A stretch of DNA of 35,515 bases from NCBI RefSeq assembly GCF_025128055.1, contig NZ_JAHLYS010000008.1, positions 1-35,515 of the forward strand, given 5' to 3'. The notes beneath the pieces are model-generated. The model worked only from the letters and a program-made list of their open reading frames with translations, did not search any database and was not told where the DNA came from. Of this stretch, positions 153-35,515 are shown one piece after another (the first letter of the stretch is position 1; every line of letters starts with the position of its first letter). The DNA comes from Synechococcus sp. CS-1329. GTDB taxonomy: Bacteria > Cyanobacteriota > Cyanobacteriia > PCC-6307 > Cyanobiaceae. A program made the translations under genes and the position numbers.

Positions 153-959
153 TCAACCCTGCAGAAGCGCTTCGGCCCAGGGCATGAAACGCTCGAGAGC
201 CTCGGGGCTGCTGGCAGCCAGCACCGGAAAATCCGTGCTGCCATGGTCGTCGCCTGGGACCAGCTGCTCGGGGCTGCGCACCAGCCAGCGCAGGGGGCAC
301 TGCAATTCGCTCAGCACCAGCCAGGCCGCCGCCAGGTCCCAGATCTTGGGGGTGGCCTCCAGGGCCATCACGGTCTGGCCCATGGCCACGCTCACCAGGT
401 TGAGACTGGCCACCCCCAGCAAGCGGATCTTGCCGGGGAAGCGCCGGTCAGGCAGTTTCTGCAGCACACCGATCGAGCGGCTGCAGAGCGAAGCGCAGCC
501 AGCCGCCTGGGCTTCATGGCCCGGAGGTTTCAGAGGTTTGCCATTGCGCCAGGCACCCACGCCGCGCACCGCGATGATCCGCTGACGCAGGGGAGGCACA
601 TCCAGCACCGCCAGCACCGGGACACCGCCTTCGAAGCGGGCCATGGAAATGGCCCAGTAGGGAATGCCAGCGGCGAAGTTGGTGGTGCCATCGAGGGGAT
701 CCACCACCCAGTAAGCGGAGGAGGAAGGCACCAGCTTGCGGCCCTCCTCACTGAGAACCCCCTCACCGGGGTAGAGCTGGCCAAGCCCCTGCACCAGAGT
801 TTCATCACTCCAGCGGTCACAGGCGGTGATCAGGCTGCCGTCGGCTTTGGCTTCGGAGGCCATGTGGCCGAAATCCCGGCGCTGCCTCTCGGCAACGGCA
901 TCAAGCAGATCCGTGAGCCTGAGAGCCTCGGCTGGAATGGCGGAGAAGGTGGCGGTCAT
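153..959 (-). CDS. Inositol monophosphatase family protein
   Basis: A 268-residue Mg-dependent phosphatase of the inositol monophosphatase/FBPase/CysQ superfamily. The metal-binding signature WVVDPLDGTTNF is at about residues 84-95 (metal ligands D87 and D90). An upstream acidic pair, E71-E72, and the C-terminal WDLAAAW element with D208 are also present, so the active site looks complete. The substrate cannot be told from sequence: inositol-1-phosphate, another sugar phosphate, or 3'-phosphoadenosine phosphate are all possible. The start ATG (957-959) overlaps by two bases the TGA (956-958) that ends the ancestral frame of the upstream pucC-like gene. That ATGA junction indicates translational coupling in the original operon. 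It is the last gene of a five-gene minus-strand run beginning with uppP. Family sure, substrate unknown. Confidence 0.93.
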   Translation of the reverse strand: MTATFSAIPAEALRLTDLLDAVAERQRRDFGHMASEAKADGSLITACDRWSDETLVQGLGQLYPGEGVLSEEGRKLVPSSSAYWVVDPLDGTTNFAAGIPYWAISMARFEGGVPVLAVLDVPPLRQRIIAVRGVGAWRNGKPLKPPGHEAQAAGCASLCSRSIGVLQKLPDRRFPGKIRLLGVASLNLVSVAMGQTVMALEATPKIWDLAAAWLVLSELQCPLRWLVRSPEQLVPGDDHGSTDFPVLAASSPEALERFMPWAEALLQG

Positions 960-1105
960 CCGAGTTCAGTGGTCAGGACCTGGGTCAGCTGTCTGGACGT
1001 GTCGTCGCGGAAGCGGTGAACATTGACGGCGACCAGCACCCGCAGCGCCGCCAGGGCGATCAGCGCAGCTGTACCGAGCACCAGGGCATAGGGGAGGAAG
1101 GGACC
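956..1105 (-). pseudogene. Orphaned C-terminal codons of the PucC-family gene (after in-frame amber)
   Basis: Directly after the TAG stop at 1106-1108 the same frame continues for 49 sense codons. It ends in a TGA at 956-958 that overlaps the start of the next gene as ATGA. The conceptual peptide begins GPFLPYALVLG, runs through an Ala/Leu/Val-rich membrane segment, and continues NVHRFRDDTSRQL. In the BCD/PucC transporter family the last helix is followed by a short basic cytoplasmic tail, which fits this segment. The open frame, the helix and the tight overlap with the next gene all say that this was coding until recently. The amber could be a true nonsense mutation or a base-call error. Confidence 0.8.
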
Positions 1106-2389
1106 CTAGCCGGGGATGATGGCACGACCTAGATCCAGCAAGCCACCGCCCAGCAACTTGGCCGTGGCGCGGGAGAAGGCCTGGGCCAGCCCCCAGACGC
1201 CAATGAAGGTGCCGGCGGCTTCCGGCAGGGTGAGATCGAGCATCAGACAGAGGGTGCTGTTGGTGCCGATACCGGAGGCCAGCCCAAAGAGCAGAAGCAC
1301 CGCCTGGAGCAGAGAAACCTCACCCACCAGACCACAGAGGATCAGCAGCAGCATCGAGGCCAGGATCAGCTGACAACCCAGCCGGGCCGTGGCGTACTTC
1401 CCCAGCCTGGGCACGATCCACCAGCCCGCCAGCACCAGACCGAGCAGGGTGCCGACCCCCCAGAAGGCATTCAACGAGGCGGTGGCGGCGATCGGCATGC
1501 CGAACACGTCGGCCCCATAGCTCTCCAGGATCGGATCCTGAATGAACAGGGCGAGGGTGAAGAGCACCAGGAACACAAAAAACACAGCCACCTGCCGGCT
1601 GGAGGTGATCAGAGCCCAGGCCTGGGGCACCGTGATCGCATCGTCGCGGGCTGGACTGGCGGATCCGAACTCCGTACTGGCCTTCGCCGTGGCCACCTGC
1701 GGCAGAGCTGGCTCGATGCCCCAGGTGGCCAGCAGGGTGAGGCCCATCACCGCCAGGGCCGCCCGCACCATGAACCTGGAGAGCACAGCCTCCAGCACCA
1801 GTGGGTCGGTGACCCCATCGAGGCCCTTGAGGCTGTTGGAGATCACGATGGCCCCCACCACGATCCCCACGGTGAGCATGCACCAGATGATTCCCACCGC
1901 CCGCGAGCGCTCCCGCTCCTGGGTGCGATCGATCACCAGGGCCAGGTAGGGGGTGGTGGCCATCGAAACCGCCAGCCCATAGGCGGCGAAGAGGGCACAC
2001 ATCAGCACCGTTCCCAGGGTGATGGCAGCCCCATCCCCCAGCTCCCGGGCAGCGGCAAGCCGGAAGATCACCGGCACCACCAGGACCGCCAGCCCGCAGA
2101 AGAGAGCGGCGCCCAGCCAGATGTAAGGGGTGCGGTGACGCCCCCCCAGCGGCCTGGAATCGGAGAGCTGGCCGAAAAGGATCCTGGAGGGGGCCACAAA
2201 TTGCTCGAAGGCCAGGGCCCCACCCACCAGCAGACCCGGGAAGCCCAGCTCGCTGATCATCACCCGGTTGAGCATGCCGGCGAAGATCACCGCCAGAAAA
2301 CCGAGGCTCCCCTGGAACAGCCCCAGCCGCACGGTGCTGGCGATCGAGAGGCTGGGCGGCGAGCTGGTGTGGACCATGGTGGAGCGCAA
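1106..2389 (-). CDS. BCD/PucC-family major facilitator transporter, truncated by amber codon
   Basis: A 427-residue polytopic membrane protein of the PucC/BCD branch of the major facilitator superfamily. Relatives include PucC and LhaA of purple bacteria, implicated in light-harvesting complex assembly, and cyanobacterial homologues thought to handle chlorophyll or its proteins. Family features are the N-terminal GLFQGSLGF and LNRVMISELG segments, and FGQLSDSRPLGGRHRTPYIW at the loop after helix 2. The product ends in RAIIPG at a TAG, but the same frame runs on for 49 more codons encoding one more helix and tail. As read, the protein lacks its last helix. The start may be the listed ATG or the ATG four codons later. 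It sits between the tolC-type gene (54-base gap) and the inositol-monophosphatase-family gene. The exact substrate is unknown. Confidence 0.88.
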   Translation of the reverse strand: MRSTMVHTSSPPSLSIASTVRLGLFQGSLGFLAVIFAGMLNRVMISELGFPGLLVGGALAFEQFVAPSRILFGQLSDSRPLGGRHRTPYIWLGAALFCGLAVLVVPVIFRLAAARELGDGAAITLGTVLMCALFAAYGLAVSMATTPYLALVIDRTQERERSRAVGIIWCMLTVGIVVGAIVISNSLKGLDGVTDPLVLEAVLSRFMVRAALAVMGLTLLATWGIEPALPQVATAKASTEFGSASPARDDAITVPQAWALITSSRQVAVFFVFLVLFTLALFIQDPILESYGADVFGMPIAATASLNAFWGVGTLLGLVLAGWWIVPRLGKYATARLGCQLILASMLLLILCGLVGEVSLLQAVLLLFGLASGIGTNSTLCLMLDLTLPEAAGTFIGVWGLAQAFSRATAKLLGGGLLDLGRAIIPG

Positions 2390-2443: not shown

Positions 2444-4195
2444 CTAGGGAGAGAGAGGACCGCGCCCATCCGGCGCACGCAGCACAGCCTGACAGGCCGG
2501 CATCAGCGGTTGCGGTTCGATCGGAATCTGGGTGGTGGGATCGCTGGCCGGCTTGACCGAGGGGAGGGAGGGCGGTTGGCAGAAGGCCACCTGATCCAGG
2601 CCCGTGCGGCGCCTCAGTTCCGCCAGGCGGCGGTTGTAATCGGTGACGGCACGGGCGTAGCTCACCTCGGCCTGGGTGAGGTCCCTCTGGCTGTCAACCA
2701 CCTCCCGCTGGGTGGTGACGCCGGCCTGGAAGCGCAGCCGGGCCAGGCGCAGGGCCTCACGCGAAGAGATCACCGCCCGGGAGGTGGTGGTGATGTCGCG
2801 GTTGTTCTGGAGCAGCTGATAGAAACTGGTTTCCACCTCCAGCCGAATCTGATCGCGGCGATCGGCGAAGGTGAAGCGCTGCTCTTCAGCGGCTTGCTTC
2901 TGCTGGCGGAACTGAGCCGCGGCGCGGCCTCCGTCAAACAGATTCCAACTGAGATTCAGGCCAAAGGAATTATCGAACCCATAGGTGTAACTGCCCATGT
3001 TGATGGATCTGTCCTCAGGGACACCGGTCTGGCCATTGCTGCGGTCCCAGCCGAAGTTGTTGACGATGGTCAGGAATGGCTGAACAGCGCCGATCGCCGC
3101 ATTGGCATTGCTGTTGGCGATGGAGATCTGCAGGATGATCTGGTCGAGTTCCTCGCGGAAGGCATAGGCCGCCACGATGCTCTCCTGCAGCGAAGGCATC
3201 CAGGTGCCCACCACCCGCGCCGGCTCCTTGGCCGTGGGGGTCACGTTCTGGGGAAGGTCGAGCAGGGAAGCCAGAGCACGGCGGGAGATCGACTGCTCCG
3301 CCAGCGAGTTGGTGAGGAGCTGCTGGTCGCGGGCCAGCTGCGTTTCCGCCTGGAGCACCTCCAGCTTGGTGGAGACACCCGCCTGGAAGCGGGCCCGGGC
3401 ATCCTTGAGGCTCACCAATGAGGCCCGCACCGACTCCTGACCGATGCGCACGCCCTCATCGGCGAGCTGAAGGTTGAAGTAGTTCTGGGCCGCCTGGAGA
3501 CGCAGGTCGCGCAGGGCGATCAGATATTGGTTCTGGGCCTGCTCGAATTGATCACGGGCCGCAGCGATCTGGGGAACCCGCTGGGGGTTGATCAGATCCC
3601 AGTTGATCCCGATTGACATGGCCGCACCGATGGTTCTGCCCTTGGTGCGCGATGTCGACGGAAGCAGGGGCCCGGCATCGGCGTCGAAGCGAAATCGAGA
3701 GCTGTTGGTCAATCCCGGAAAGGTGTTCCCTGTCGAAAGATTGATGTTGGGGTACCAGGCCGAAATCTGAGCACGCAGATTGGATTGGGCCTGATCCACC
3801 TGGGAGGCCACCGCCTTGAGGCTGGGGTTGTTGGCCTCGGCCAGAGTTTCCACGTCCCGCAGACCCAGGGGCCGCAGTTGCTGGATCTTCACCTGAGCGG
3901 GCCGGATCGGCAGGGCCAGGGATGGAGGCGAAGCCAGAGGCTGGAGGTCGGGCTGGAGCTGCGTGGCCGCCGGAGGCAGAACGGTGGGATCCGAGAGAGG
4001 CCGATTGCCCAGCACCTCCGGTGCCAGGGGAACCGGCACGGGACTGGCCGAGGGAACAGGGCTGAGTTCGGCGGCGGGAGGCTCTGGAGCAAGGTCCTGG
4101 GCCTGGGCCAGGCTCACCCCCTGAAGACCAGGGACGAGCGCCATACCCGCAAGGGTTGCCGAGGCAAGGAAGGAGCGACGCACACCAGAACCCAT
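2444..4195 (-). CDS. TolC family outer membrane efflux protein
   Basis: A 583-residue outer-membrane channel of the TolC/OEP family, which forms a trimeric barrel and periplasmic tunnel for type I secretion or drug efflux. The N-terminus (MGSGVRRSFLASATLAG, ending ...SLAQAQ) is a signal peptide. It is followed by a Pro/Ala/Ser-rich linker to about residue 100, longer than in enterobacterial TolC and common in cyanobacterial homologues. Two OEP repeats follow, each with long amphipathic helices rich in Ala, Gln and Arg; near-repeated phrases RARFQAGVSTKLEVLQAETQ (first half) and RLRFQAGVTTQREVVDSQRD (second half) mark the internal duplication. No inner-membrane pump or adaptor gene is adjacent, so it probably serves several exporters. 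The gene lies 14 bases downstream of the PDZ/radical-SAM gene, consistent with one transcript. Confidence 0.93.
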   Translation of the reverse strand: MGSGVRRSFLASATLAGMALVPGLQGVSLAQAQDLAPEPPAAELSPVPSASPVPVPLAPEVLGNRPLSDPTVLPPAATQLQPDLQPLASPPSLALPIRPAQVKIQQLRPLGLRDVETLAEANNPSLKAVASQVDQAQSNLRAQISAWYPNINLSTGNTFPGLTNSSRFRFDADAGPLLPSTSRTKGRTIGAAMSIGINWDLINPQRVPQIAAARDQFEQAQNQYLIALRDLRLQAAQNYFNLQLADEGVRIGQESVRASLVSLKDARARFQAGVSTKLEVLQAETQLARDQQLLTNSLAEQSISRRALASLLDLPQNVTPTAKEPARVVGTWMPSLQESIVAAYAFREELDQIILQISIANSNANAAIGAVQPFLTIVNNFGWDRSNGQTGVPEDRSINMGSYTYGFDNSFGLNLSWNLFDGGRAAAQFRQQKQAAEEQRFTFADRRDQIRLEVETSFYQLLQNNRDITTTSRAVISSREALRLARLRFQAGVTTQREVVDSQRDLTQAEVSYARAVTDYNRRLAELRRRTGLDQVAFCQPPSLPSVKPASDPTTQIPIEPQPLMPACQAVLRAPDGRGPLSP

Positions 4196-8026: not shown

Positions 8027-9715
8027 ATGCCCTCGACGCCCCGCCCCCAACCACCCCTGGCTCCACGCTGGGATGTGGTGGTGGTGGGTGGCGGAGCTGC
8101 TGGGCTGATGGCCTGTCTGGAGTTGCCTGCCCAGTTGAGGGTGCTCCTGCTCAGCAAGGAGCGCGGACCGCGCACCGCCAGCCGATGGGCCCAGGGGGGC
8201 ATCGCCGCGGTCACCCGAGCTGAGGACAGCCTGGCGAGCCACCGCGACGACACCCTGCGGGCAGGTGCAGGCCTGTGTGATCCCGGTGCCGTTGATCTGC
8301 TGGTGCGGCAGGCTCCGGCCTGCGTTGAGCGGCTGCTGGGGCTGGGCATGGCCTTCGACCGCGATGGCCCCGACCTGAGCACCACCCTCGAAGCCGCCCA
8401 CAGCCACCGGCGGGTGCTCCACGCCCAGGACCGCACCGGTGGCGCCCTGGTGGATGCCCTGGAGCGGGAAGTGCTGCGCCGCCCTGGGCTGGTGCAGCGC
8501 AAGGGGCTGATGGCTCTGCAGATCTGGGTCGAGCAGGGCCGCTGCCTCGGGCTGCAGGTGCTGGAGAACGATCAGGTGCGCTGGCTGGCGGCCGGCGCCG
8601 TGGTGCTGGCCAGCGGCGGTGGCGGCCACCTGTTTGAGAAGACCACCAATCCCTCCCAGTCCACCGGTGATGGGGTGGCGATGGCCTGGCGGGCCGGGGC
8701 CGCCATCCGCGATCTGGAATTCGTCCAGTTCCATCCCACCGCGCTGATGCTGCCGGGGGCTCCCCACTTCCTGATCTCCGAAGCCGTGCGCGGAGAGGGG
8801 GCCCGCCTGATCGACAGCCACGGCCACAGTCCGGTGGCCGGCCTCGCCAGCGCCGATCTGGCTCCCCGTGATCAGGTGAGTCGTGCCCTGGTGCGCACGA
8901 TGCAGGCCCAGGCCGTGGACCACCTCTGGCTCGACCTGCGCCCGGTGGGAACGGAGCGGTTGAACCGTCAGTTCCCCACGATCCTGCGCCGCTGCCGCGA
9001 GTTGGGCCTGGAGCCCACCGAGGGGCCGATCCCCGTGGCCCCTGCCGCCCACTACTGGATGGGTGGCGTGAGCACCGACCTGAACGCCGCCACCAACCTT
9101 CCAGGCCTCTACGCCGTGGGTGAGGTGGCCTGCACGGGCGTGCATGGCGCCAATCGCCTGGCCAGCAATTCACTGATGGAATGTCTGGTTTTTGCCGGCC
9201 AGTTGCGCCATCTGTCCGTGCCGGAGCTGCCGCCCCTGCCCCACTCCTTGTGCTCTCCAGCGAGCGCCAGCGATGGCAGCGCTTCTCCCCAGCTCGCCGA
9301 CGGCCAGCCGCTGGCGAGCGAGTTACGGGCCCAGAGCGAGCGGCTGCGCCAGCTCTGCTGGCGGGTGGCGGGGGTCGAGCGCCAGGGGCGGGAGCTGCAG
9401 GAGGCTCTGGGCCTGATCCGCCGTCAGCGGCTGCAGCTTGAAGAGCAACCCTGGATTCAGGCCCTGACCCGGCTCGAGCCCGGCGCGCAGCTGCCCCTGG
9501 GGCCGGGCGGTGGCAGCGTGCTGCGCCCCCTCAACGATCTGCGCCAGCTGCTCACCCTGGCGGATCTGCTGGTGGACGCTGCGCTGTTCCGCCGCGAGAG
9601 CCGCGGCGGCCACTACCGCACAGACGACCCGGCACCCCAGCCGTTCTGGCAGCGCCATTCCCAGCAACAACGCGGCGCCGCGATCCGCACGACACCGCTG
9701 CTGCAAGGGGAGTGA
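8027..9715 (+). CDS. nadB: L-aspartate oxidase
   Basis: A 562-residue FAD enzyme that oxidises L-aspartate to iminoaspartate, the first step of de novo NAD synthesis before quinolinate synthase (NadA). The FAD-binding Rossmann motif WDVVVVGGGAAGLMAC lies at residues 15-30. The flavin/substrate block RTASRWAQGGIAAV follows, then HSHRRVLHAQDRTGGALVDAL, and the family hallmark HGANRLASNSLMECLVFA in the substrate-binding part. The C-terminal helical domain is complete. Length matches the family (about 530-560). The ATG used is the only plausible start upstream of the Rossmann strand. It has no Shine-Dalgarno and lies eight bases after the psbU terminator, so the transcript start is puzzling. Succinate dehydrogenase flavoprotein is unlikely given the NadB-specific motifs. 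Confidence 0.95.
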   Translation: MPSTPRPQPPLAPRWDVVVVGGGAAGLMACLELPAQLRVLLLSKERGPRTASRWAQGGIAAVTRAEDSLASHRDDTLRAGAGLCDPGAVDLLVRQAPACVERLLGLGMAFDRDGPDLSTTLEAAHSHRRVLHAQDRTGGALVDALEREVLRRPGLVQRKGLMALQIWVEQGRCLGLQVLENDQVRWLAAGAVVLASGGGGHLFEKTTNPSQSTGDGVAMAWRAGAAIRDLEFVQFHPTALMLPGAPHFLISEAVRGEGARLIDSHGHSPVAGLASADLAPRDQVSRALVRTMQAQAVDHLWLDLRPVGTERLNRQFPTILRRCRELGLEPTEGPIPVAPAAHYWMGGVSTDLNAATNLPGLYAVGEVACTGVHGANRLASNSLMECLVFAGQLRHLSVPELPPLPHSLCSPASASDGSASPQLADGQPLASELRAQSERLRQLCWRVAGVERQGRELQEALGLIRRQRLQLEEQPWIQALTRLEPGAQLPLGPGGGSVLRPLNDLRQLLTLADLLVDAALFRRESRGGHYRTDDPAPQPFWQRHSQQQRGAAIRTTPLLQGE

Positions 9716-9767: not shown

Positions 9768-10682
9768 CTAACCCTTGAACCCACTCAGTTCGGCCAGTCT
9801 GGCGAGGGGCTTGACGCCGGAATCCAGCTTGCCGTTGATCTCCCAGGTGGGAAATCCCTCCAGATTCTTACTGTCACAGAGGGCCTTCTGATTGTTGACG
9901 CCATCGGCGGCGCATTCGATCACCTTGAGCTTGGCGGTGGCCTCCTTGCCGAAGAGTTCCTTCTGCTCATGGCAATGGGGGCACCAGTAGGCGCTGTACA
10001 TCACCGCTCCGGCTTGGCTGAGGTGTTCCGCCAGGGCCAGAGTGGCCGGGGTGCTGGATGTGAGCACGGGGGGCGCTGAACCGCGGGTAGCCAGGGCGGC
10101 GGGTCGATCGACGGAGGCGGCCCAGCCGAGGCCCACCAGACCCACCAGCAGGGCCACCAGCACCCCGCGAAACACCAGCTGGCCGCGGTCGTCCCACTGG
10201 CCACCGATGAGGCTGAGCACGAACAGGCTCAGGCTGAGCACAGCCGAGAGCACACAGAAGAAGCAGAAGGCCTGGATCTTGAATACCAGCAGCCCCATCA
10301 GCAGCAGGCTGAACACGGCCATGCCACCGCTGAGCAGGAACAACCCCCACCAGCTGCGCTCGCCCATGGCGGCTCGGGCCTCACCTTTGAGCACCAGCGG
10401 CAGCAACGCCAGCACCAGCACCGTGGCGTAAGCGAGGAAGCCGAAGAGCGAGAGCGGCTGGCCAAACAGGCTGCCCCAGACGCTGTTGAGCACCTTGTCG
10501 CAGCCTTCGGCGCCGCCGGGGCAGCTGAGGGGGCCGATCAGCCCCCAGCGCTTGAGGGTGATCGCGCCGGTGTCGATGGCACCGATCGTGGCCAGAACAG
10601 CCATCACCACACGAACCCAGCGCAGTCCCGGGTCGGATCGGCGACGGCTGCTGAGGCGGCTGCTCAAGCGGGTGGAGGTCAC
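9768..10682 (-). CDS. Vitamin K epoxide reductase-thioredoxin fusion (VKOR-DsbA type)
   Basis: A 304-residue membrane disulfide-forming protein. The N-terminal VKOR domain (about residues 20-190, four to five helices) has the loop pair C54 and C61 and the quinone-site motif C140-F-F-C143. After a short linker comes a lumenal/periplasmic thioredoxin-like domain with the active site C234-P-H-C237, a further pair C257/C269 and a cis-Pro loop (GFPTW). This matches the VKOR homologue known structurally from Synechococcus, in which electrons pass from substrate to the Trx domain to VKOR to quinone. It is the cyanobacterial route for oxidative folding. The start is a GTG at 10680-10682, overlapping the btpA stop as GTGA, so the two are translationally coupled. 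Confidence 0.95.
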   Translation of the reverse strand: MTSTRLSSRLSSRRRSDPGLRWVRVVMAVLATIGAIDTGAITLKRWGLIGPLSCPGGAEGCDKVLNSVWGSLFGQPLSLFGFLAYATVLVLALLPLVLKGEARAAMGERSWWGLFLLSGGMAVFSLLLMGLLVFKIQAFCFFCVLSAVLSLSLFVLSLIGGQWDDRGQLVFRGVLVALLVGLVGLGWAASVDRPAALATRGSAPPVLTSSTPATLALAEHLSQAGAVMYSAYWCPHCHEQKELFGKEATAKLKVIECAADGVNNQKALCDSKNLEGFPTWEINGKLDSGVKPLARLAELSGFKG

Positions 10683-11515
10683 GGCAGGGGCTGAGGCTGG
10701 GCTGATTGTGGCAGCAACCGTTTCAGCGCACTGACTCGATCCGCGTCCACCGGCGCCGAGATCAGGCCGTTGCGCTTCAGCGCCGTGCCGGCGATCACAC
10801 CGTCACAGGCCAGCGAAAGCCGCTGCAGCGTCTGCTCACTGGCCCCGCTGCCGATCAACACCGGTGCCCCGCCCGCCGCGGCCCTGGCCTGCTCCAGATC
10901 GACCGGATCGGTGGGTCGACCGGTGCCCGTACCCGAGACGATCACCCCATCGGCACCGCCGCGCTCGAGCACATCGCTGACCGCCTCCGCCATCGACAGC
11001 GGCGCCAGGGGCGCCCCGTGCTTGACCAGCACATCCGCCAGGATCCGCACCGATTCGGCCCCCAGCAGCCGGCGCCGGCGCAGCAGCTCGGCCGCCACCC
11101 CTTCGACCACCCCCTGGTCGGTGACCGTGGCACCGCTGAGCACGTTCACCCGTAGAAAAAGGCCGCCACTGGCCTGGGCGATCGCCAGGGCCGCCAGGGC
11201 GTCGTTGCGCAGCACATTGATGCCCACAGGCCGCTGCGTGGCCCTCACCACCGCCAGGGCCAGCCGAGTCATGGCGGCCACCGTTTCCGGCGGCACCGAG
11301 CCCCGCCAGAAGGGCACGTCACCGAAGTTCTCGACGATCAGGCCATCGGCGCCGCCGCTGAGGTAGGCCTCGGCATCGGCGAGGGCGGCGGCCTCCAGCG
11401 CCCCCAGATCCCCTGCCCAGCCCGGCGAGCCCGGCAGGGGACCCAGGTGAATCACCCCGATCAACGGGCAGGGCTGGGGGAACAGCTGCCGCCAGCGGGA
11501 TGCAGAGGTGAGCAT
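10679..11515 (-). CDS. btpA: BtpA-family protein, photosystem I biogenesis factor
   Basis: A 278-residue TIM-barrel protein of the BtpA/SgcQ family. In Synechocystis BtpA is a thylakoid-associated factor needed for stable accumulation of the photosystem I reaction-centre proteins. Family features are [16 protein letters not shown] near the N-terminus, [33 protein letters not shown] and the C-terminal [17 protein letters not shown] with GSGA. The start chosen is the ATG at 11513-11515. An in-frame ATG 18 codons upstream and a much longer open frame exist but run toward the divergent rimO start, and the extra sequence does not look conserved. The stop overlaps the start of the VKOR fusion. The intergenic stretch 11516-11629 must hold the divergent btpA/rimO promoters. 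Confidence 0.93.
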
Positions 11516-11629
11516 GGCGATGGCCGCACGGAGGAGAAGGCGCCGGGCCCAGGTACCCGGATATCCCATAGGGTGATGGATTGGCCCCAGGGGTTCGCCC
11601 ACGGCCAAGGTTTTCGGCCACCGCACCCA

Positions 11630-13063
11630 ATGTCTCCCGTCAGCGCAGCTTTCCCCGCAGGATCGGTTCGCCCAGGGGGGCCTGGCGCCAGCCGTCCCAC
11701 GGTGGCCTTCGCCCACCTGGGCTGCGAGAAGAACCGGGTCGACACCGAACACATGCTCGGACTGCTGGCCGAGGCGGGCTATGGCATCAGCGCCGATGAG
11801 CGCGAGGCGGCGGTGGTGGTGGTGAACACCTGCAGCTTCATCCAGGACGCCCGCCAGGAATCGGTGCGCACGCTGGTGGAACTGGCGGAGCAGGGCAAGG
11901 AACTGATCATCGCCGGCTGCCTTGCCCAGCATTTCCGCGAGGAACTGCTGGAATCACTGCCGGAGGCGCGCGCGATCGTGGGCACCGGCGACTACCAGCA
12001 CATCGTCGAGGTGCTCGAGCGGGTGGAGGCCGGTGAGCGGGTGAACCGGGTGAGCGATGTGCCCACCTTCGTGGGGGATGAGAATCTGCCCCGCTACCGC
12101 ACCACCTCCGAGGCCATTGCCTACCTCAAGGTGGCTGAGGGCTGTGACTACCGCTGCGCCTTCTGCATCATCCCCAGGCTGCGGGGCGACCAGCGCTCCC
12201 GCACGATCGAATCGATCGTGGCCGAGGCCCATCAGCTGGCCGCCCAGGGAGTGCAGGAGCTGATCCTGATCAGCCAGATCACCACCAACTACGGCCTCGA
12301 CCTCTACGGCAAGCCCCAGCTCGCGCCGCTGCTGCGGGCCCTGGGGGAGGTGGAGATCCCCTGGATCCGGGTGCATTACGCCTATCCCACCGGCCTCACG
12401 CCCGAGGTGCTGCGCGCCTACCGGGAAGTGCCCAACGTGCTGCCCTACCTGGATCTGCCACTGCAGCACAGCCATCCCGAGGTGCTGCGGGCGATGAACC
12501 GCCCCTGGCAGACCGGCCTGACCACCGAGCTGCTGGGCCGGATTCGCGAGCTGCTGCCCGATGCCGTGCTGCGCACCACCTTCATCGTCGGCTTCCCCGG
12601 CGAAACCGAGGAACAGTTCGAGCACCTGCTCCGGTTCGTTGAGGAGCAGCGCTTCGACCATGTGGGCGTGTTCACCTTCTCGCCGGAAGACGGCACCGCG
12701 GCGGTGGATCTGCCCGATCCGGTGCCGGCTGAGGTGGCGATCGAGCGTCGCAACCGCCTGATGGCGGCTCAGCAGCCGATCGCGGCGGAACGCAATGCCA
12801 GCTGGGTGGGCCGGATCGTCGATGTGCTGATCGAGCAGGAAAACCCCAGCAGCGGCGAGATGATCGGCCGCTGTGCCCGCTTCGCTCCCGACGTGGACGG
12901 GGAAGTGCGGGTGAGCCCGGGCCCAGGCGGCCTCTGCGCCTCCCCCGGAACCATGGTGCCGGTGCGTCTCACGGCCTCCACCCCCTACGACCTCCAGGGC
13001 GAGGTGGTGGGTGCCCGGGCGATGGTGGAGGAGGCACTGGCCGGGATCGAGGGCCGCGGTTGA
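11630..13063 (+). CDS. rimO: Ribosomal protein S12 methylthiotransferase RimO
   Basis: A 477-residue radical SAM enzyme that adds a methylthio group to the conserved aspartate of ribosomal protein S12. The N-terminal UPF0004 domain provides the auxiliary-cluster cysteines C32 ([12 protein letters not shown]), C68 (NTCSF) and C97 (AGCLAQ). The radical SAM cluster is C172-x3-C176-x2-C179 (CDYRCAFC), followed by [12 protein letters not shown]. The C-terminal TRAM domain begins near [15 protein letters not shown]. The RimO-specific HLGCEKN signature separates it from MiaB. The start chosen is the ATG at 11630. The open frame extends about 60 codons further upstream into the divergent btpA gene and is rejected. 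The stop overlaps the TTG start of the MFS gene by three bases. Confidence 0.96.
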
Positions 13064-14298
13064 GGCACTGGATCCACCGCCACCAGCGCACCACTTTTCT
13101 GATCGCCTCGGGGTTGAGCACGGCTGGCTCCTTTGCCGGGCTCACCGCCAAGGGCTGGATCCTGATGGACCAGACCAGCAATCCACTGCTGCTGGCCCTG
13201 CACTTCGGCGTCCTGGCGCTACCGAGCCTGCTGGTCAGCGGCAGGGCCGGCGTTCTCACCGACCGGATCGGCTGCGAACGGGTGCTGATCCGCTCCCAGT
13301 GGGGGTTGGTGGCCGGTGCCGGCCTCGGGGCCGTGGCGATTCCCCTCCTGACGGGGGCCGCCCAGGTGAGCCTGCTGCTGCTGAGCACTCTGGTGGTGGG
13401 CCTGGCCAGCTCCTTCGAGCTCACCGCCCGCAACAAATACTGCGCCCTGCTGGTGGATGGGCCGGCCCAGCTGGCCCCCTATCTCACCTCCTTCTCGGTG
13501 GTGTTCAACGTCGGCAAGCTGGTGGGGCCACCCATCGGTGGTTTGCTGCTGGCCCTGACGGGGCCGGCCACGGCCCTGGCCATTGACGCGGCCTCCTATC
13601 TGCTGCCGATCGCGACCGTGCTGTGGCTGCTGCAGCCCGACCTCGGCGCCGAGCGGCGCAGCGGCAGCGGTGCTGGCTCCAGCCTGGCCAGTGCCTGGCG
13701 GGGCTGCGGCGCCAGCCTTCGCCATGTGCTCGTGTTCACGGGTCTGGCTTGCCTGGCGGTCTTCTTCCATCCCGGGCTGGCCCCCTTGATCGCCGCCCAG
13801 GTGCTGGGACCCTCTCCCCAGGCCCTGGGTTGGTTCACCAGCGTGCTGGCGGCCGGCAGCATCTGCGGAGGATTGCTGTTGCAACGGCGCAGCCAGTGGC
13901 TGAGCGAGCGGCCATCGCTGCTGCTGGGCAGTTGCGCGGTACTCACCAGCCTGGGCCAACTGGGGATGGCCCTGACGGCACCCTCGGCCTTCCACCTGGG
14001 GATGACCTTTCTGATCGGAGCGGGCACTGCCGGACTGCTGGCGGGCAGCAATCTGATCCTGCAGGTAGGAGCCCCCCTGGTGTTGCGCGGACGCATGGCA
14101 GGGCTCGGGCAGATCGCCTTCCTCGGCGGCGGCGGCTTCAGCGGGCTGATCGCCGCCGCTTTGTCTCTGCGGGTGGGACTGCCGGCCACCTTCGCCCTGA
14201 TGGGCAGCGTGGGACTGGCGCTGGGGCTGCTGGAGCTCAGCAGCCGCTGGGGGCTGCGCCTGAACCCAAACGACTCAGATCAGCTTGACGCCGCGTAG
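13060..14298 (+). CDS. MFS transporter, DHA3/EntS-like
   Basis: A 412-residue major facilitator with about 12 helices. Its arrangement resembles the EntS/DHA3 drug- or siderophore-exporter group: [17 protein letters not shown] in helix 1, and [21 protein letters not shown] as the loop 2-3 signature. [23 protein letters not shown] lies in the loop region, followed by [13 protein letters not shown]. The substrate is unknown. The start is inferred as TTG at 13060-13062 because it overlaps the rimO TGA in a TTGA junction and leaves room for helix 1; the next ATG would cut into it. The 3' end overlaps the antisense petL gene by 24 bases. Confidence 0.85.
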
Positions 14299-16193: not shown

Positions 16194-16616
16194 TCAGTCC
16201 TGGATGTAGCCATCGCCGGTGCACAGGGCTGCTTCGGCCTTCTGCAGCTCACGGCCCAGGTAGAGGGCGTGGTCCAGTCGGCTGATGGGCGCAGGGCCTG
16301 GGCCTTCGGTGAGCTGAATGCCCAGCTGTTTGGCGGTGCAGCCTCGAAACACCGTCACAGGCCGACGGGGAGCGCCGCCACGGCAACTGAGCACCTCACC
16401 GGTGTCGGGATCCGTGGCCAGACCCCGGTCATTGATGCCGTTGCTGTAGAGCTCCGCCACCAGCTCCCCGCGCTCGCGATCCAGGCTGATCAGCACATAG
16501 CCGGCCGGATCGAGATCAATGGGGCGCTGCGACAGCCGTTCGTCGAGGGCACGCCGCTCCTGCAGGGGCCAGGGGCTGGGCGACGGAGAGGTTGCGGCAG
16601 GGGCTGACTGATCCAT
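16194..16616 (-). CDS. DUF4346 family protein
   Basis: A 140-residue soluble protein of the cyanobacterial DUF4346 family, function unknown. Diagnostic stretches are RLSQRPIDLDPAGYVLISLD, ELYSNGINDRGLATDPDTGEV, VFRGCTAKQLGIQ, and the C-terminal SRLDHALYLGRELQKAEAAL ending in GYIQD. The first 20 residues are Ser/Pro-rich and not part of the domain. The start is the ATG at 16614-16616; a much longer open frame upstream overlaps the FemAB-like gene and is rejected. The neighbour on the same strand, the FemAB-like gene, ends 22 bases upstream, so they may be co-transcribed. Confidence 0.88.
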   Translation of the reverse strand: MDQSAPAATSPSPSPWPLQERRALDERLSQRPIDLDPAGYVLISLDRERGELVAELYSNGINDRGLATDPDTGEVLSCRGGAPRRPVTVFRGCTAKQLGIQLTEGPGPAPISRLDHALYLGRELQKAEAALCTGDGYIQD

Positions 16617-16638
16617 GGGCCGATCGTAAGCAGCAGCC

Positions 16639-17817
16639 TCAGCAGGCGCCCAGGGGCAGGTCGCGGCGGCTGAAGGGCAGCTCGGCATTTTCCGCTGCGA
16701 TCTCTTCGAGCATCTGAGCATTGGCCTCGGGCAGCCAGCGGCGCAGCAATCGATCAAAGCCGGGATCCCGCCAGCGGTGCAGGCTGGCCCGCGGCTGGGC
16801 CAGAAAACCCCGACGCCGCTTGTGGCTCCCACCAGCACCTGGATCAAAGCCGCGGATCCCCTGAGCGATCGCCCATTCGATCGGGGCGTAATAGCAGACC
16901 TCGAAATGCAGATTCTCGATCTCCTGATCGCTGCCCCAGTAACGGCCCCAGAGGGCATCGCCATGGCGCACGCACAGCGACATCGCCACCGGCTCAAGCG
17001 GATCACCCCGATGGGCACTGAACAGCACCAGATGCTCCCTCAGCTCGATCGCATCCACGTGAAAGAACTCCTCACTGAGGTACTTGCTGCCCCAGGCCCC
17101 CCAGCGGCTGCAGTGCTGCGCGTAGAAGTGATGCATGCGCTGGAGCATGGCGGCGGGAATCTCACTCCCCACCAGCGGCGTCACCTGCAGGCCGGCCGCC
17201 GCGATCGAGCGCCGCTCCCGGCGGATGTTGCGGCGCTGGTTGGCATTGAAGCCAGCCAGATAATCCTCGAAACAGCTGAACCCAGCATTGATCCAGAGGC
17301 TCTGCTGGTTCAGCCAGGTGGCACAGCCGGCGGCCTCGGCCCAGGGCTGCCACTGGGGATCCACATAGAGAAAGTTACAGCTGAAAATCTGCTGCTCAAG
17401 GCAGAAGCGATCAATCAGCTCCAGCATCAGGGCCGTGAGTTCTGCCCCGTCTTCTCCGGGATCGATGTGAAAGCGGTAGCCCTGCACCGGGCTGATCGGG
17501 CTCATGCCCACCAGCTTCGGGTAGTAGCGCAGCCCCAGCTGGCCGGCGAGCTGGGCAAAGGATTGATCAAAGACGAATTCGCCGTAGCTGTGGCCCTTGA
17601 GGTAGAGGGGCGCCACGGCAATCAGCCTGTCCTGGCGCCACAGGCTCAGGTGACAGGGCTGCCAGCCCTGGCGGGGCACGATGCTGCCGGAGCGCTCCAG
17701 GGCGTGCAGCCAGGGCCAGCTGTAGAAGGGCAAACCCTCGGCCCCCATGAGCGCCTGCCAGGCTTCCGGGGGAATCTCCGTCATGGCCCGGTGCCATCGG
17801 GCCTGCAGCTCAGCCAT
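16639..17817 (-). CDS. FemAB-like acyltransferase (DUF482/PF04339 type)
   Basis: A 392-residue protein of the FemAB-like, DUF482 family, which has a double GNAT fold and is often named peptidogalycan biosynthesis protein. Actual substrates are unproven. Characteristic blocks are PFYSWPWLHALERSGS, APLYLKGHSYGEFVFDQSFA, YYPKLVGMSPISPVQGYRF, FNANQRRNIRRERRS, and the C-terminal FEVCYYAPIEWAIAQGI followed by FDPGAGGSHKRRRGF. These match the family throughout. The start chosen is the ATG at 17815-17817 (MAELQARWHRAMTEIP), where family similarity begins. An ATG at 17863-17865 would add 16 hydrophobic residues and would overlap the divergent gene's ATG. Function in acyl or aminoacyl transfer is inference. 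Confidence 0.9.
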   Translation of the reverse strand: MAELQARWHRAMTEIPPEAWQALMGAEGLPFYSWPWLHALERSGSIVPRQGWQPCHLSLWRQDRLIAVAPLYLKGHSYGEFVFDQSFAQLAGQLGLRYYPKLVGMSPISPVQGYRFHIDPGEDGAELTALMLELIDRFCLEQQIFSCNFLYVDPQWQPWAEAAGCATWLNQQSLWINAGFSCFEDYLAGFNANQRRNIRRERRSIAAAGLQVTPLVGSEIPAAMLQRMHHFYAQHCSRWGAWGSKYLSEEFFHVDAIELREHLVLFSAHRGDPLEPVAMSLCVRHGDALWGRYWGSDQEIENLHFEVCYYAPIEWAIAQGIRGFDPGAGGSHKRRRGFLAQPRASLHRWRDPGFDRLLRRWLPEANAQMLEEIAAENAELPFSRRDLPLGAC

Positions 17818-18319: not shown

Positions 18320-18950
18320 GACTGCGGCGATAGCGCAGCAGCAGCTCACCACCCCCCAGGGGCCGCTGCTCCAGCGCCTGCCAGCTCTGGCCGGAGAGGT
18401 CGGGCGCCAGGGGACTCAGCCAGCCATGCGCCCCCCCCAGCAGCAGCGGGCAGAGGCTCAGCTGCAGCTCCTGCACCAGGTCCTCCGCCAGCAGGGCCGT
18501 GGCCAGCTCAGCTCCACCAAGCAGCACCAAGCGCTGCAGGCCGCGCCTTCCCAGCTCCGCCAGGGTCGCCCGCCAGGGCCCCAGGGTCAGGTGGGCCCCA
18601 AAGGCCGGCTGGGCTGGCCCTGGCGAGAGCAACCAGCGCTCCAGCGGTTGGCGGAAGAACGGCAGAGATGGCTCCAGCCCCCGGCCCCGGCTCACCACCA
18701 CGGCGATGGGTTGGGGAGAGCGCCCTTCGAGCCGACGTCGCTCCAGCAGCTCGGGGCGGTGGATCAGACAGGTGCCGCGGTGCAGACGAACCGTGGCCGC
18801 CCCCACCAGGCAGCCGTCGGCCCAGGCCAGGGCCTCCTCCAGCACAGCGCGATCGCCGGCACCACCCAGCTGGGCGGCACCACCCTGGGCTGGAGCGAGA
18901 CGGCCATCGAGGCTGATGGCCAGCACCAGCCGCAGCTGCGGCTGGCTCAA
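18291..18950 (-). CDS. RibD C-terminal/dihydrofolate-reductase-like reductase
   Basis: A 219-residue stand-alone reductase domain related to the C-terminal half of RibD and to dihydrofolate reductase, expected to use NADPH on a pyrimidine or pterin substrate. Family motifs are LRLVLAISLDGRLAP at the N-terminus, DGCLVGAATVRLHRG, then PIAVVVSRG and the C-terminal GGAELATALLAEDLVQELQLSLCPLLLGG. There is no deaminase domain, so it is not a bifunctional RibD. The start is inferred as TTG at 18948-18950, overlapping the stop of the tandem PTPS gene as TTGA. This pairing suggests coupled translation and a shared pteridine pathway, though a riboflavin role is also possible. Confidence 0.86.
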   Translation of the reverse strand: MSQPQLRLVLAISLDGRLAPAQGGAAQLGGAGDRAVLEEALAWADGCLVGAATVRLHRGTCLIHRPELLERRRLEGRSPQPIAVVVSRGRGLEPSLPFFRQPLERWLLSPGPAQPAFGAHLTLGPWRATLAELGRRGLQRLVLLGGAELATALLAEDLVQELQLSLCPLLLGGAHGWLSPLAPDLSGQSWQALEQRPLGGGELLLRYRRSPTSGVRGAA

Positions 18951-19933
18951 GCGCTGGCCAGGGCCTCCAGCACGGCCGGACGGGCTTCGAGCAGGGGTGT
19001 TTCAGCGAACACCTCGGCGGCGTTGTTGGGGCTCTCCTGCAGGCGCACCTTGTGCAGGGCGGCGCCGGTGGCGGCGATCGGGGCGCTGAGCAGATCAGCG
19101 ATGTGCAGGGCGATGTTCTCGGCGGTGGGCACGCAGCTGGCGAAGTGGGCCACGTCCTTGTTGAGGAAGGTGTGATCGAAGGGTTCCACCACCAGGTCAT
19201 TCACCAGGCTTTGCAGCTGGGCGAGGTCGCAGACCATGCCGGTGCGGGGATCGATCGTCCCGCGCACAGTCACATCCAGCAGATAGTTGTGGCCGTGGCC
19301 GTGGGGCCGGGCGCACTTGCCGTAGATGGCTTCGTTCTCACTCAGGGAGAGCTCCTCGCGGGCCAGGCGGTGGGCGGCGGCGAAGTGGGTGCGGATCGAG
19401 AGGAAGGCTTCCATGGAGTTGCCGATGACATCGGCCCAGAGGGTGGGTTGCTCGTAGAGGCGCAGACCGACGAGCGGCAGGTGCGGGGTCAGCCGTGTCC
19501 AGATCGCCTGAAGCACGGCCTCGGTGGTGGGCAGGCACCCCTCGGGGCGGCTCAGATCGAATTCCGGCCAGCAGTCGTTGAGGAAGCGGAAATCGAGGGG
19601 ATCGGTGACCTCCCGACGGATGGCGTGCTTCACATCGGAGAGGTTGAGCACCATGCCGTCACCATCGAGCGGGCCGGCCATCGCCACGATCAGCTCGTAG
19701 TTGTGGCCATGGCCAGGAGCCAGGCTGCAACGGCCGAAACGGCGGCTGTTCTCCCCATCACTCAGCTCCGGCAACCGATAGAGGTGGCTGGCACTGAACA
19801 GGGCCCGGCGGGTGATCACGCAGCCGCGACCGCGGCCGTGGCGAGGGGTGCCGGCTGAGACGCCAGCGCTGGGGGTGGCGGGCATCGCCAGGGTCCCGGT
19901 GGCCATCGACTCGGCGGCATTCTGCTGAGTCAT
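18947..19933 (-). CDS. Tandem 6-pyruvoyl-tetrahydropterin synthase/QueD-family protein
   Basis: A 328-residue protein with two PTPS/QueD-type domains in one chain, where usual family members have one of about 120-150 residues. Domain 1 (about 38-170) has the zinc ligands H50 (FSASH), H75 and H77 (GHGHNY) and C69. At the place of the catalytic His it reads LDFRFLN, so the His is replaced by F115. Domain 2 (about 176-305) has AHRL (H188), GKC (C207), HGHGHNY, D253-H254 (FDHTFLN) and E300, a complete set. The product may be 6-pyruvoyltetrahydropterin for cyanopterin-like pterins, or 6-carboxytetrahydropterin for queuosine. The first 35 residues look disordered. It is coupled by a TTGA overlap to the RibD-type reductase and is divergent from aroK. 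Confidence 0.93.
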   Translation of the reverse strand: MTQQNAAESMATGTLAMPATPSAGVSAGTPRHGRGRGCVITRRALFSASHLYRLPELSDGENSRRFGRCSLAPGHGHNYELIVAMAGPLDGDGMVLNLSDVKHAIRREVTDPLDFRFLNDCWPEFDLSRPEGCLPTTEAVLQAIWTRLTPHLPLVGLRLYEQPTLWADVIGNSMEAFLSIRTHFAAAHRLAREELSLSENEAIYGKCARPHGHGHNYLLDVTVRGTIDPRTGMVCDLAQLQSLVNDLVVEPFDHTFLNKDVAHFASCVPTAENIALHIADLLSAPIAATGAALHKVRLQESPNNAAEVFAETPLLEARPAVLEALASA

Positions 19934-30011: not shown

Positions 30012-30440
30012 ATGACGGCCCCCGCCAAGTCTGCCGAATCCCTTTTTGATCAGGCCATCGGCCGCTACCAGCAGGGTGCTGCGGCCGCTGATGTGATCGA
30101 CGACTTTCTGACGATCACGGAGCAGGCTCCCCGGCTCTCGGCCGCCTGGACCTGCCTGTCCTGGCTGCAACTGCTCGAAGACCAACCCGAACCGGCCCTG
30201 CGCTCGGCCCGGATGGCGGTCAAGCTCAACCCCCAGGATCCCCAGTCACGGGTGAACCTCTGCCTGGCCATGCTCGAGTCGGGCGCCAAGGGAGTGCGGG
30301 AGCACATCGATCTCGTGCTGCGCATCACCGCCGTATCGCCTGAGCTGGCCAGCGAACTGAATGAGGCGCTCGCCGACGGGCTCAGGCGCCGTCCAGGCTG
30401 GACCTCGCTGGAGAAAGTTCAGGCCTGGCTGCAGGGTTGA
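30012..30440 (+). CDS. TPR-like protein
   Basis: A 142-residue small soluble protein with tetratricopeptide-type helical hairpins: SLFDQAIGRYQQGAAAADVI, LSAAWTCLSWLQLLEDQPEPALRSARMAVKLNPQDP, and VNLCLAMLESG. The 'x-KLNPQDP' turn is typical of TPRs. No transmembrane or signal segment is seen. It is placed before the LpxB-like gene with the stop at 30438-30440, only 17 bases before that gene's ATG, so a joint role is possible. The function is unknown. Confidence 0.82.
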   Translation: MTAPAKSAESLFDQAIGRYQQGAAAADVIDDFLTITEQAPRLSAAWTCLSWLQLLEDQPEPALRSARMAVKLNPQDPQSRVNLCLAMLESGAKGVREHIDLVLRITAVSPELASELNEALADGLRRRPGWTSLEKVQAWLQG

Positions 30441-30457
30441 TCCCCGGAGCCCTGCCG

Positions 30458-31684
30458 ATGGGCGATCGCCGCCGCCGCCTGCTGCTGCTCAGCAATGGCC
30501 ATGGAGAAGACCTCAGCGGCAGCCTGATCGGGCAGGAGTTGCAGCAGCGGGGGCTGGAGGTGGTAGCCCTGCCTCTGGTGGGCCATGGCAGCGCTTACCA
30601 GCAGGCCGGTCTGCCCGTGCTTGGCCGCACCCGCGAATTCAGCACCGGGGGCCTGGGTTACACCAGCCTCGGCGGACGCCTGACGGAACTGATGCAGGGC
30701 CAGGCCCTCTACCTGCTGGGCCAGCTGCTGCTGTTCTTCCGGGAAGCCCGCCACTGTGCCGCGGTGGTGGTTGTCGGCGATGTGATCCCCGTGCTGGCCG
30801 CCTGGTGCAGCCGCCGGCCGGGGATCACCTATCTGGTGGCCTACTCCAGCCACTACGAAGGCCGCCTGCGCCTGCCCTGGCCCTGCGGCCCCTGCCTGCG
30901 CAGCCGCCGCTTCCGACGGGTGTTCAGCCGCGATGCCTTCACCGCCACGGACCTGAGCCATCAGCTGGGTCGGCCGGTGGATTTTCTTGGCAACCCCTTC
31001 CTCGATCGGGTGCTGGAGAGTGCAGCGCCCCTCGAGGCCTCCCCAGCCGGGGCACCCATCCCGCGGCTGGGGCTGCTGCCGGGCAGTCGCCTGCCCGAGG
31101 CCCTGCGCAACGTCGAGTTGATGCTGCAAGTGCTCACTCGCCTGCCGGAGCACCTGCAGACCAGCGGCGGCCTGCGTCTGAATGCCGCTCTGGTGGGAGC
31201 AATCGATGCGGCGGCGGTGGCCCGGCTCAGCCGCCCCCTGGGCTGGAGCCTGGAGCCAGGGGGCTGCCTGCGCCGCGGCGCCCTGGAGCTGAGGCTGCAC
31301 TGGGGGGAGTTCCCGGCGGTGGTGCAGCAGGCCGACCTGCTGCTGGCCATGACCGGCACGGCCACGGAGCAGGCCGTGGGCCTGGGCAAACCCGTGCTGC
31401 AGCTGGCGGGGGGCGGCCCCCAGTTCAGCCCCAATTTCGCCGAAGCCCAGCGGCGCCTGCTGGGGCCCTCCCTGTTCAGCGCTGAAGGGGAGCCGGGCTC
31501 AGAGCGCAGCCTGGGGGGCACCGCCAAGCTGGTGGCTGAGGTGCTGCACCAGCTGCGGCACAGCGATCTGGCGGAGCGCTGCCGGCGCAATGGCCTGGAG
31601 CGCATCGGCGGGGCGGGCGGTGCGGCCAGGATGGCGGCGCAGATCCTGCAGGCCCTCGATGAACGCAAAGCCCCGCTCCAGTGA
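30458..31684 (+). CDS. Lipid-A-disaccharide synthase-related protein (TIGR03492-type)
   Basis: A 408-residue GT-B-fold protein of the cyanobacterial/plastid family related to LpxB. It begins LLLLSNGHGEDLSGSLIGQEL, a nucleotide-sugar-type loop. Next come VVALPLVGHGSAYQQAGLPV, VVVVGDVIPVLAAW, the C-terminal-half RLGLLPGSRLPEALRNVELML and LLLAMTGTATEQAVGLGKPVLQLAGGGPQF. These fit the family. The acceptor is unknown; true LpxB makes the lipid A disaccharide. The start is the ATG at 30458-30460; an in-frame TTG seven codons upstream, overlapping the TPR gene's stop, is less likely. The last 26 bases overlap the next gene. Confidence 0.9.
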   Translation: MGDRRRRLLLLSNGHGEDLSGSLIGQELQQRGLEVVALPLVGHGSAYQQAGLPVLGRTREFSTGGLGYTSLGGRLTELMQGQALYLLGQLLLFFREARHCAAVVVVGDVIPVLAAWCSRRPGITYLVAYSSHYEGRLRLPWPCGPCLRSRRFRRVFSRDAFTATDLSHQLGRPVDFLGNPFLDRVLESAAPLEASPAGAPIPRLGLLPGSRLPEALRNVELMLQVLTRLPEHLQTSGGLRLNAALVGAIDAAAVARLSRPLGWSLEPGGCLRRGALELRLHWGEFPAVVQQADLLLAMTGTATEQAVGLGKPVLQLAGGGPQFSPNFAEAQRRLLGPSLFSAEGEPGSERSLGGTAKLVAEVLHQLRHSDLAERCRRNGLERIGGAGGAARMAAQILQALDERKAPLQ

Positions 31685-34077: not shown

Positions 34078-35515
34078 TCAGAACTTGAAGGTGGTCTGCA
34101 CGAGACCGCCGAAGTTGCTGAAGCTGCTGTCGTTGCCGGTGAGCTGACCCAGGGGGCGGCTCAGGTAGAAGATCGCCGGGGTGACGGCGATGTTGTCGGT
34201 AACCTGGAACTTGTACCACCACTCCCAGACGAAGTTGCCATCGGCCGGGGTGGTGTTGCCGGAGTTGTCACTGCCGCGGCTGAGGGCCGTGGCGAAGACG
34301 GGCTGACCGACAGCCATACCGGCGGCGTTGCCTTTGGCGAACAGATCGTTCCACTGCAGGCCGACGAACCAGCTCTGGCTTTCGGTCACATAGGGGTCAA
34401 TGAACTCAACGCCAAGGGCATTGCTGTCGTTGCCGGAGAGGCTGTTGAGACCCCAGCCGAGGCTGACGGAGGGCATCCAGCCACTGTTCTTGGGCTGCCA
34501 GTAGGCGTTGGCGGCCACACTGTTGGTGTCACCGGTGGTGAGGAACCAGCTGTTGCTGGCGGCAAAGTTCGTACCCCGGCGGAAATTGGTGGCCTGCTGG
34601 CCGTAGCGATAGGCCAGGGACACGTTCCACTGGGGAGCCGTGTAGTTCAACTGGGCCAGGAAGTTGCCACGGGCACAGTCGGTACCGATGCCGCCTTCGC
34701 TGCTGGAACAGGCGTTGTCGTTGCCATCAAACACCTGACCCACGTTGCCCTGCTGGGCCACGTAGCTGGCGCCGAAGCTGAAAGCACCCCGACCTTTCTC
34801 GACTTTCTGCTTCCAGATGCCGGCGAGCAGGGAGCCAGTGGCCTTGTTGTAGACACCGGGGGCGCCGTTCAGGCTGAACAGGTCAAGGATGCGATTACCC
34901 TTGCCGCTGCCATAGACCGAAGGGGTGACAGCCAGTGATTCGGTGTTGCGGGCCTTGGGACCGACCACGAAGGTGAAATCGCGACCAACCGGGAAGCGGT
35001 AGTAGAGACGATCGACGCCGATCGAATCGGTGCCGCCGATGCCATTGCTGGCCACATCCAGGGCGGTGAGGTTAACTCCTTTGCCAGCAAAGGCATTATT
35101 GAAGTTGCCCGAACGCAGACGGGTGTAGAGAAGATCCTTACCGGTGAAGCTGGTGAGCAGGTTCAGCCGCAGGTCATAGCTGAAGGTGGTGGCCCCATAC
35201 AGCTGATTGTATCTTTCAGCAGCATCACGGCTGCCAAATGTTGGCGCAGCGCCGAAGGCTCCTGAATTCTGGCTGTCACCGCTGGCGGTGATCGCGCCCA
35301 CCACGAAAGTGGCCTGACCCTTAAGTTTGGTGGTGGTGGAGAACTGGGTGGCTTCCAGTTCACCAACTTTGGCCTCGAGGTTGTCGACGCGACCACGCAG
35401 GATCGCCAGTTCCTTCTCGAACTCCTTGAGCAGGCGGCGCAGCTCGTCGGTCACTTCGGTGATCCGATCGAGGCAGGCGTTGAGCAGAGCAGCGGCTTCC
35501 CAGCGGCTCAGGGGC
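34078..35515 (-). CDS. SLH-domain outer-membrane porin (OprB/iron-uptake porin type), 5'-truncated
   Basis: The C-terminal part of a cyanobacterial porin; the start lies beyond the window edge at 35515. The visible frame begins with the tail of an SLH domain (LSRWEAAALLNACLDRI). It continues with a coiled-coil stretch (RLLKEFEKELAILRGRVDNLEAKVGELEA), then the beta-barrel: alternating strands rich in Tyr, Trp, Asn and Ser (for example YNQLYGATTFSYDLRLNL, NVSLAYRYGQQATNFRRGT). It ends in TTFKF, the terminal Phe typical for outer-membrane insertion. The SLH-coiled-coil-barrel arrangement binds peptidoglycan-linked polymers and forms a large diffusion channel; iron or solute uptake is inferred from family naming. 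An internal GTG at 35452-35454 is not the start. A terminator lies downstream. Confidence 0.92.
   Translation of the reverse strand, partial: PLSRWEAAALLNACLDRITEVTDELRRLLKEFEKELAILRGRVDNLEAKVGELEATQFSTTTKLKGQATFVVGAITASGDSQNSGAFGAAPTFGSRDAAERYNQLYGATTFSYDLRLNLLTSFTGKDLLYTRLRSGNFNNAFAGKGVNLTALDVASNGIGGTDSIGVDRLYYRFPVGRDFTFVVGPKARNTESLAVTPSVYGSGKGNRILDLFSLNGAPGVYNKATGSLLAGIWKQKVEKGRGAFSFGASYVAQQGNVGQVFDGNDNACSSSEGGIGTDCARGNFLAQLNYTAPQWNVSLAYRYGQQATNFRRGTNFAASNSWFLTTGDTNSVAANAYWQPKNSGWMPSVSLGWGLNSLSGNDSNALGVEFIDPYVTESQSWFVGLQWNDLFAKGNAAGMAVGQPVFATALSRGSDNSGNTTPADGNFVWEWWYKFQVTDNIAVTPAIFYLSRPLGQLTGNDSSFSNFGGLVQTTFKF

Follow-up and report, generated by a model that had tools for sequence, protein, structure and literature searches.

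A probable recent nonsense mutation in the only PUCC-family gene of Synechococcus sp. CS-1329

The PUCC gene and its in-frame TAG codon

The stretch of DNA analyzed here, referred to as the window, covers bases 1 to 35,515 of contig C6 of Synechococcus sp. CS-1329, the genome of which amounts to 2.58 Mb in 49 contigs, with an estimated completeness of 99.98%. Close to its left end, the window carries a gene for a membrane protein of the PUCC/BCD family, which is preceded by an efflux gene and followed by a phosphatase gene (Table 1). The ORF starts with TTG according to the ORF tool, with an in-frame ATG 4 codons further in, and its translation ends in ...LGRAIIPG directly before a TAG at 1108-1106 on the minus strand. 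Beyond this codon, the same frame continues for 49 sense residues, GPFLPYALVLGTAALIALAALRVLVAVNVHRFRDDTSRQLTQVLTTELG, and is closed by a TGA at 958-956 on the same strand. The positions that the first-pass annotation had given for the TAG, the 49-codon extension, the TGA, and the ATGA overlap with the next gene were all correct when reread in the sequence.

Table 1 Features of the PUCC locus and other stops considered in the window
Feature	Position	Strand	Remarks
PUCC/BCD-family (MFS) membrane protein, ORF as it stands	1106..2389	-	427 aa, closed by premature TAG; PF03209, E 1.4e-107
In-frame TAG, codon 428	1106..1108	-	CAG (Gln) in 8/8 congeners
Former C-terminal coding part, conserved, 49 codons	959..1105	-	Membrane helix 12 and terminal helix, from relatives and model
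Original TGA stop of the PUCC gene	956..958	-	Overlaps the next start as ATGA
Inositol-monophosphatase-family gene, downstream	153..959	-	268 aa, intact; ATG at 959-957
Stops reflecting length differences	8027-9715 (end); 18947-19933 and 30437-31684 (upstream sides)		Judged by eye

The Pfam PUCC profile (PF03209) matches the short ORF with 360.6 bits (cut-off, 21) over profile positions 1 to 367; when the frame is read across the TAG, the score rises to 371.6 bits and the match covers positions 1 to 400 of 401. The 49-residue tail by itself has no Pfam match. Because the profile match crosses the TAG and because a near-identical tail and the ATGA recur in all eight congeners, the in-frame continuation is not a chance open frame. 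A profile search of the genome yielded this single PUCC match, and there is thus no recognizable paralogue that could cover for the truncated gene.

Conservation of the full-length gene among relatives

The eight other genomes of the genus that were searched all carry the gene (loci L003 to L010), with proteins 89 to 95% identical to that of the window over 427 residues. All eight read CAG at the site and stay in frame up to the same TGA, with the ATGA overlap likewise unchanged. A further search yielded 78 named loci (L011 to L088), the nearest of which belong to Cyanobium and Synechococcus. Its query was the 427-residue part without the tail, so that the tail had no influence on the choice of loci. 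The tail is kept in 77 of the 78, and the remaining locus (L077) is cut by its contig end inside the gene. The counts of 8 congeners and 78 loci are not independent, since some loci come from the same genomes. The full-length orthologues of the genus, such as that of Synechococcus sp. WH 5701 (L015), thus represent the same gene with the same ATGA overlap at its end, but they have about 473 residues and run open to the TGA with CAG at the site, whereas the gene in the window has TAG. The open frame in the congeners and the tail in the named loci uphold the earlier claim that the coding region once reached position 956. This claim was also examined by asking whether relatives end at the position of the TAG and share no similarity with the extension; all of those with a complete end keep the tail, so the claim was not refuted. 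In an alignment of the window's protein with those of 50 of the 78 loci (51 sequences), the tail residues V437, A448, L452, and F460 are invariant. Residue 428 itself is variable, being Q in 19, D in 16, E in 11, and G in 11 of the 78 loci and N, A, S, P, or a gap in the others.

When 300 genomes sampled from the family were searched, 192 had a match to the full-length PUCC protein of a congener. Among the matches listed, stops occur in three other genomes (G138, G235, and G031), and these are read as lying upstream of the start, since the open frames of 459, 467, and 482 residues suffice for the whole gene; for G031, the profile search gives a full PUCC match without a stop. Also among the matches listed, the PUCC gene of a number of relatives lies about 1 kb from a contig start. 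A strong PUCC match, defined by our own threshold as a best E value of 1e-50 or lower and counted by us, is present in 48 of 69 family genomes sampled and searched with the Pfam profile, and among these 48, an internal stop is found only in the genome of the window. The other 21 genomes have no strong match, and five of them (G025, G026, G037, G063, and G074) are 99 to 100% complete; the PUCC gene therefore seems dispensable in some lineages. Viral contigs yielded no relative.

The phosphatase gene also recurs beside the PUCC gene, lying no more than 1.2 kb downstream in 53 of the 78 loci, and by pattern count only, 42 of these 53 have ATGA, GTGA, or TTGA at the stop. Together with the ATGA overlap kept in the eight congeners, this pattern makes translational coupling of the two genes plausible, in which case the early stop could lower translation of the phosphatase.

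Predicted structure and the part removed by the TAG

An AlphaFold2 model of the read-through protein, obtained with the 51-sequence alignment, has a mean pLDDT of 90.5 and a pTM of 0.89. In this model, the protein has the 12-helix MFS fold, with 12 membrane helices by our own count from the helix list, 11 of which remain in the truncated ORF. Codon 428 falls in a loop (residues 425 to 430), which is followed by the last membrane helix (431 to 454) and a terminal helix (457 to 476). The model and the full-length genes of the relatives thus bear out the claim that the amber codon removes the last helix. The best match of the model among solved structures is human SLC37A4 (Z score, 36.6; rmsd, 2.9; 373 aligned), followed by SPNS2, NorA, VMAT, and similar proteins; we take these four to be MFS transporters. 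A sequence search found no solved structures at an E value of 0.01.

PucC and LhaA of Rhodobacter are described as having 12-helix topologies within the MFS, with both ends cytoplasmic, and as playing a role in the assembly of pigment-protein (light-harvesting) complexes in purple bacteria (PMC4949548). These proteins of the BCD family (PF03209) share the Pfam family and the reported 12-helix architecture with the protein considered here. Unlike them, the gene in the window is cyanobacterial, has efflux and phosphatase genes as neighbors, and lacks helix 12 through the TAG. The 11-helix form would be one helix short in its C-terminal half, with its end on the opposite side of the membrane, and is probably inactive. 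C-terminal deletions of PucC were reportedly studied by LeBlanc and Beatty in 1996. Our literature searches returned no description of function for a cyanobacterial PUCC protein. Together with the lack of a strong PUCC match in some complete genomes of the family, this leaves the notable physiological change proposed in the first-pass annotation a putative one.

Age of the stop and selection on the gene

Changes were assigned to branches by parsimony, and those with no assignable branch were left out. Of 32 hand-picked ORFs, 31 were counted and one was skipped for coverage below 80%; the set left out 8027-9715 and some short ORFs and includes two doubtful members, 11954-12661 and 16194-17018, which overlap other genes. 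On the branch leading to the window after its split from the nearest relative (G008), the tail acquired 5 synonymous and 0 amino acid changes, and its 49 residues are identical to those of two relatives (G001 and G004). For an unconstrained tail, the chance that all five changes would be synonymous is 0.002 to 0.004, and the stop is no older than about a quarter of the window branch (a rough 95% bound); both figures come from simple site counts with few changes and serve only as a guide. This pattern indicates that the stop either is very young or is absent from the organism. In the gene body, 43 synonymous changes stand against 11 others (the stop included) on the same branch, giving a ratio of 0.101, compared with 0.042 on the sister branch and 0.030 to 0.389 for the other window ORFs on the window branch, and pN/pS against five relatives ranges from 0.15 to 0.22. 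The substitution counts give no clear sign of relaxed selection in the body, which would fit a very young stop and equally a base error.

The adjacent outer-membrane efflux gene (2444-4195) is unusually diverged in the nearest relative, G008, with which it shares 78.5% identity, versus 85 to 89% with four others. The G008 branch of this gene carries 42 amino acid and 25 synonymous changes, suggesting its replacement or fast change in G008.

Other stop codons in the window

A second in-frame TAG, at the end of the plus-strand ORF 10706-11155 and CAG in five of five relatives, was considered and rejected, as this ORF is antisense to a BtpA-family gene (10679-11932, minus strand; PF03437, E 1.1e-78) that shares a syntenic block with the PUCC gene. 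Differences from the five relatives at 10706-11155 fall mostly on third codon positions of the minus frame (from 42 of 60 to 62 of 91), so that the change at this TAG is Leu to Leu in the BtpA gene. The first part of the BtpA gene, to about residue 100 to 120, is poorly conserved and has stops in relatives; its true start therefore probably lies further in, and its overlap with 11447-13063 is likely a matter of annotation. When ORFs of relatives were compared with the window, the other stops were assigned by eye to antisense ORFs or to length differences on the start or end side (Table 1); the automatic choice of gene at flagged stops used codon-position G+C and is rough. The VKOR-family gene (9768-10682) ends in TAG in the window and in G008, whereas four of five relatives run two residues further, with CAG, AGG, or CGG at the site, which represents a shift of the stop at the end of the gene.

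Origin of the TAG codon

Of the three origins offered by the first-pass annotation, a recent nonsense mutation is the best supported, a base error keeps a lesser share of the probability, and amber readthrough is without support from release factor 1, the tRNAs found, and the other TAG codons of the window. The TAG is probably a real and recent nonsense mutation with loss of function in the only PUCC match of the genome. Homologous coding sequence continues in frame past the stop, and a sense codon occupies the site in relatives, as in point-nonsense pseudogenes, which have one in-frame stop in a frame that is otherwise intact and constrained-looking; in this single assembly, no difference from such pseudogenes was seen.

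The strongest competitor, which we consider possible but clearly less probable, is that the TAG is a base error of the assembly, or a minority or strain allele or a culture variant that entered the consensus, and that the usual gene is full length. The departure amounts to one base only, both tail and body still look like parts of a gene under constraint, and the TAG is known from one assembly of one strain of the species, an assembly of 49 contigs in which only 1.1 kb separates the site from the end of its contig. However, comparison with five syntenic relatives (judged partly by eye) revealed no further broken gene in the 35.5 kb of the window, so that errors do not look frequent there. Within the genome, the stretch bearing the TAG has no match besides itself, and the nearby contig end is explained by a repeat, as bases 1 to 141 recur identically at the end of contig C9. 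The complete chromosome of one congener has a 16S-23S operon, with two tRNAs, immediately past the phosphatase gene, and in view of these shared 141 bases, the contig probably breaks at the rRNA repeat; rRNA was found neither in the window nor in contig C9. The right end of the window (35297-35515) also carries a dispersed repeat, which matches contigs C15, C11, C40, and C45 with 91 to 100% identity over 73 to 211 bases.

A functional 11-helix protein, the shortening of which would be adaptive or neutral, is highly improbable. The 427-residue body lacks a clear relaxation of selection on the window branch, but the stop is too young for this pattern to be informative about a short form; all 77 loci that are complete at this end have helix 12, and the 51-sequence alignment shows no variation at four tail residues.

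Readthrough of the TAG by a suppressor tRNA, by programmed readthrough, or by recoding, with the full-length protein still made, would agree with the tail free of amino acid changes on the window branch and with the variability of residue 428, owing to which any inserted residue might be tolerated. Against it, release factor 1 is intact (prfA profile, 470.4 bits; cut-off, 423.25; no internal stop), and the anticodon CUA occurs in none of the 40 tRNA genes found and typed, a list that is probably incomplete for the tRNAs of rRNA operons. tRNA-Ile (GAT) and tRNA-Ala (TGC), the usual tRNAs of rRNA spacers, are missing from these 40, and since rRNA likewise was not found in the window or contig C9, whereas the congener chromosome has the operon there, the list is probably short of them; the tRNA-Leu with the anticodon TAG reads CUA and not UAG. 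In addition, TAG serves as an ordinary terminator nearby, closing the outer-membrane efflux gene in the window and in all five relatives compared and closing the gene at 13060-14298 in the window and in two of five relatives, with TAA in the other three. No conserved extension was seen beyond the TAG-ended genes of the window except for the two residues at 9768-10682, no further gene with an in-frame TAG was found in the window apart from the antisense candidate at 10706-11155, and no relative examined has a stop at the PUCC site. Taken together, readthrough is extremely improbable.

Consequences of the truncation

Most likely, no new mechanism is involved, and the TAG reflects either a commonplace loss-of-function mutation of recent date or a base error in a single assembly. 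Under a nonsense mutation, a single substitution from CAG to TAG, a C-to-T transition, would have struck the only PUCC match of a Synechococcus/Cyanobium-type genome. Translation would stop at codon 428, leaving 11 helices, and the C-terminal half would be unable to pack as in 12-helix MFS proteins, so that PUCC function would be lost or strongly lowered. The downstream phosphatase may be translated less, as ribosomes would now halt about 150 bases earlier.

It is unlikely that the stop has reached fixation in a natural population and that a picocyanobacterium has just lost its sole PUCC-family assembly-type protein or lowered it to leaky amber translation. If the TAG is not in the organism, it is a single-base problem that should be flagged, lest the gene be entered as a short form within its family. 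Should the organism carry the stop, the strain would be a naturally occurring loss-of-function mutant for a cyanobacterial PUCC protein that is conserved. If it is also fixed, the loss would have been caught within about the last quarter of the divergence of the lineage, before other decay, and the strain would provide a natural truncation mutant for asking what role the PUCC protein plays in oxygenic phototrophs.
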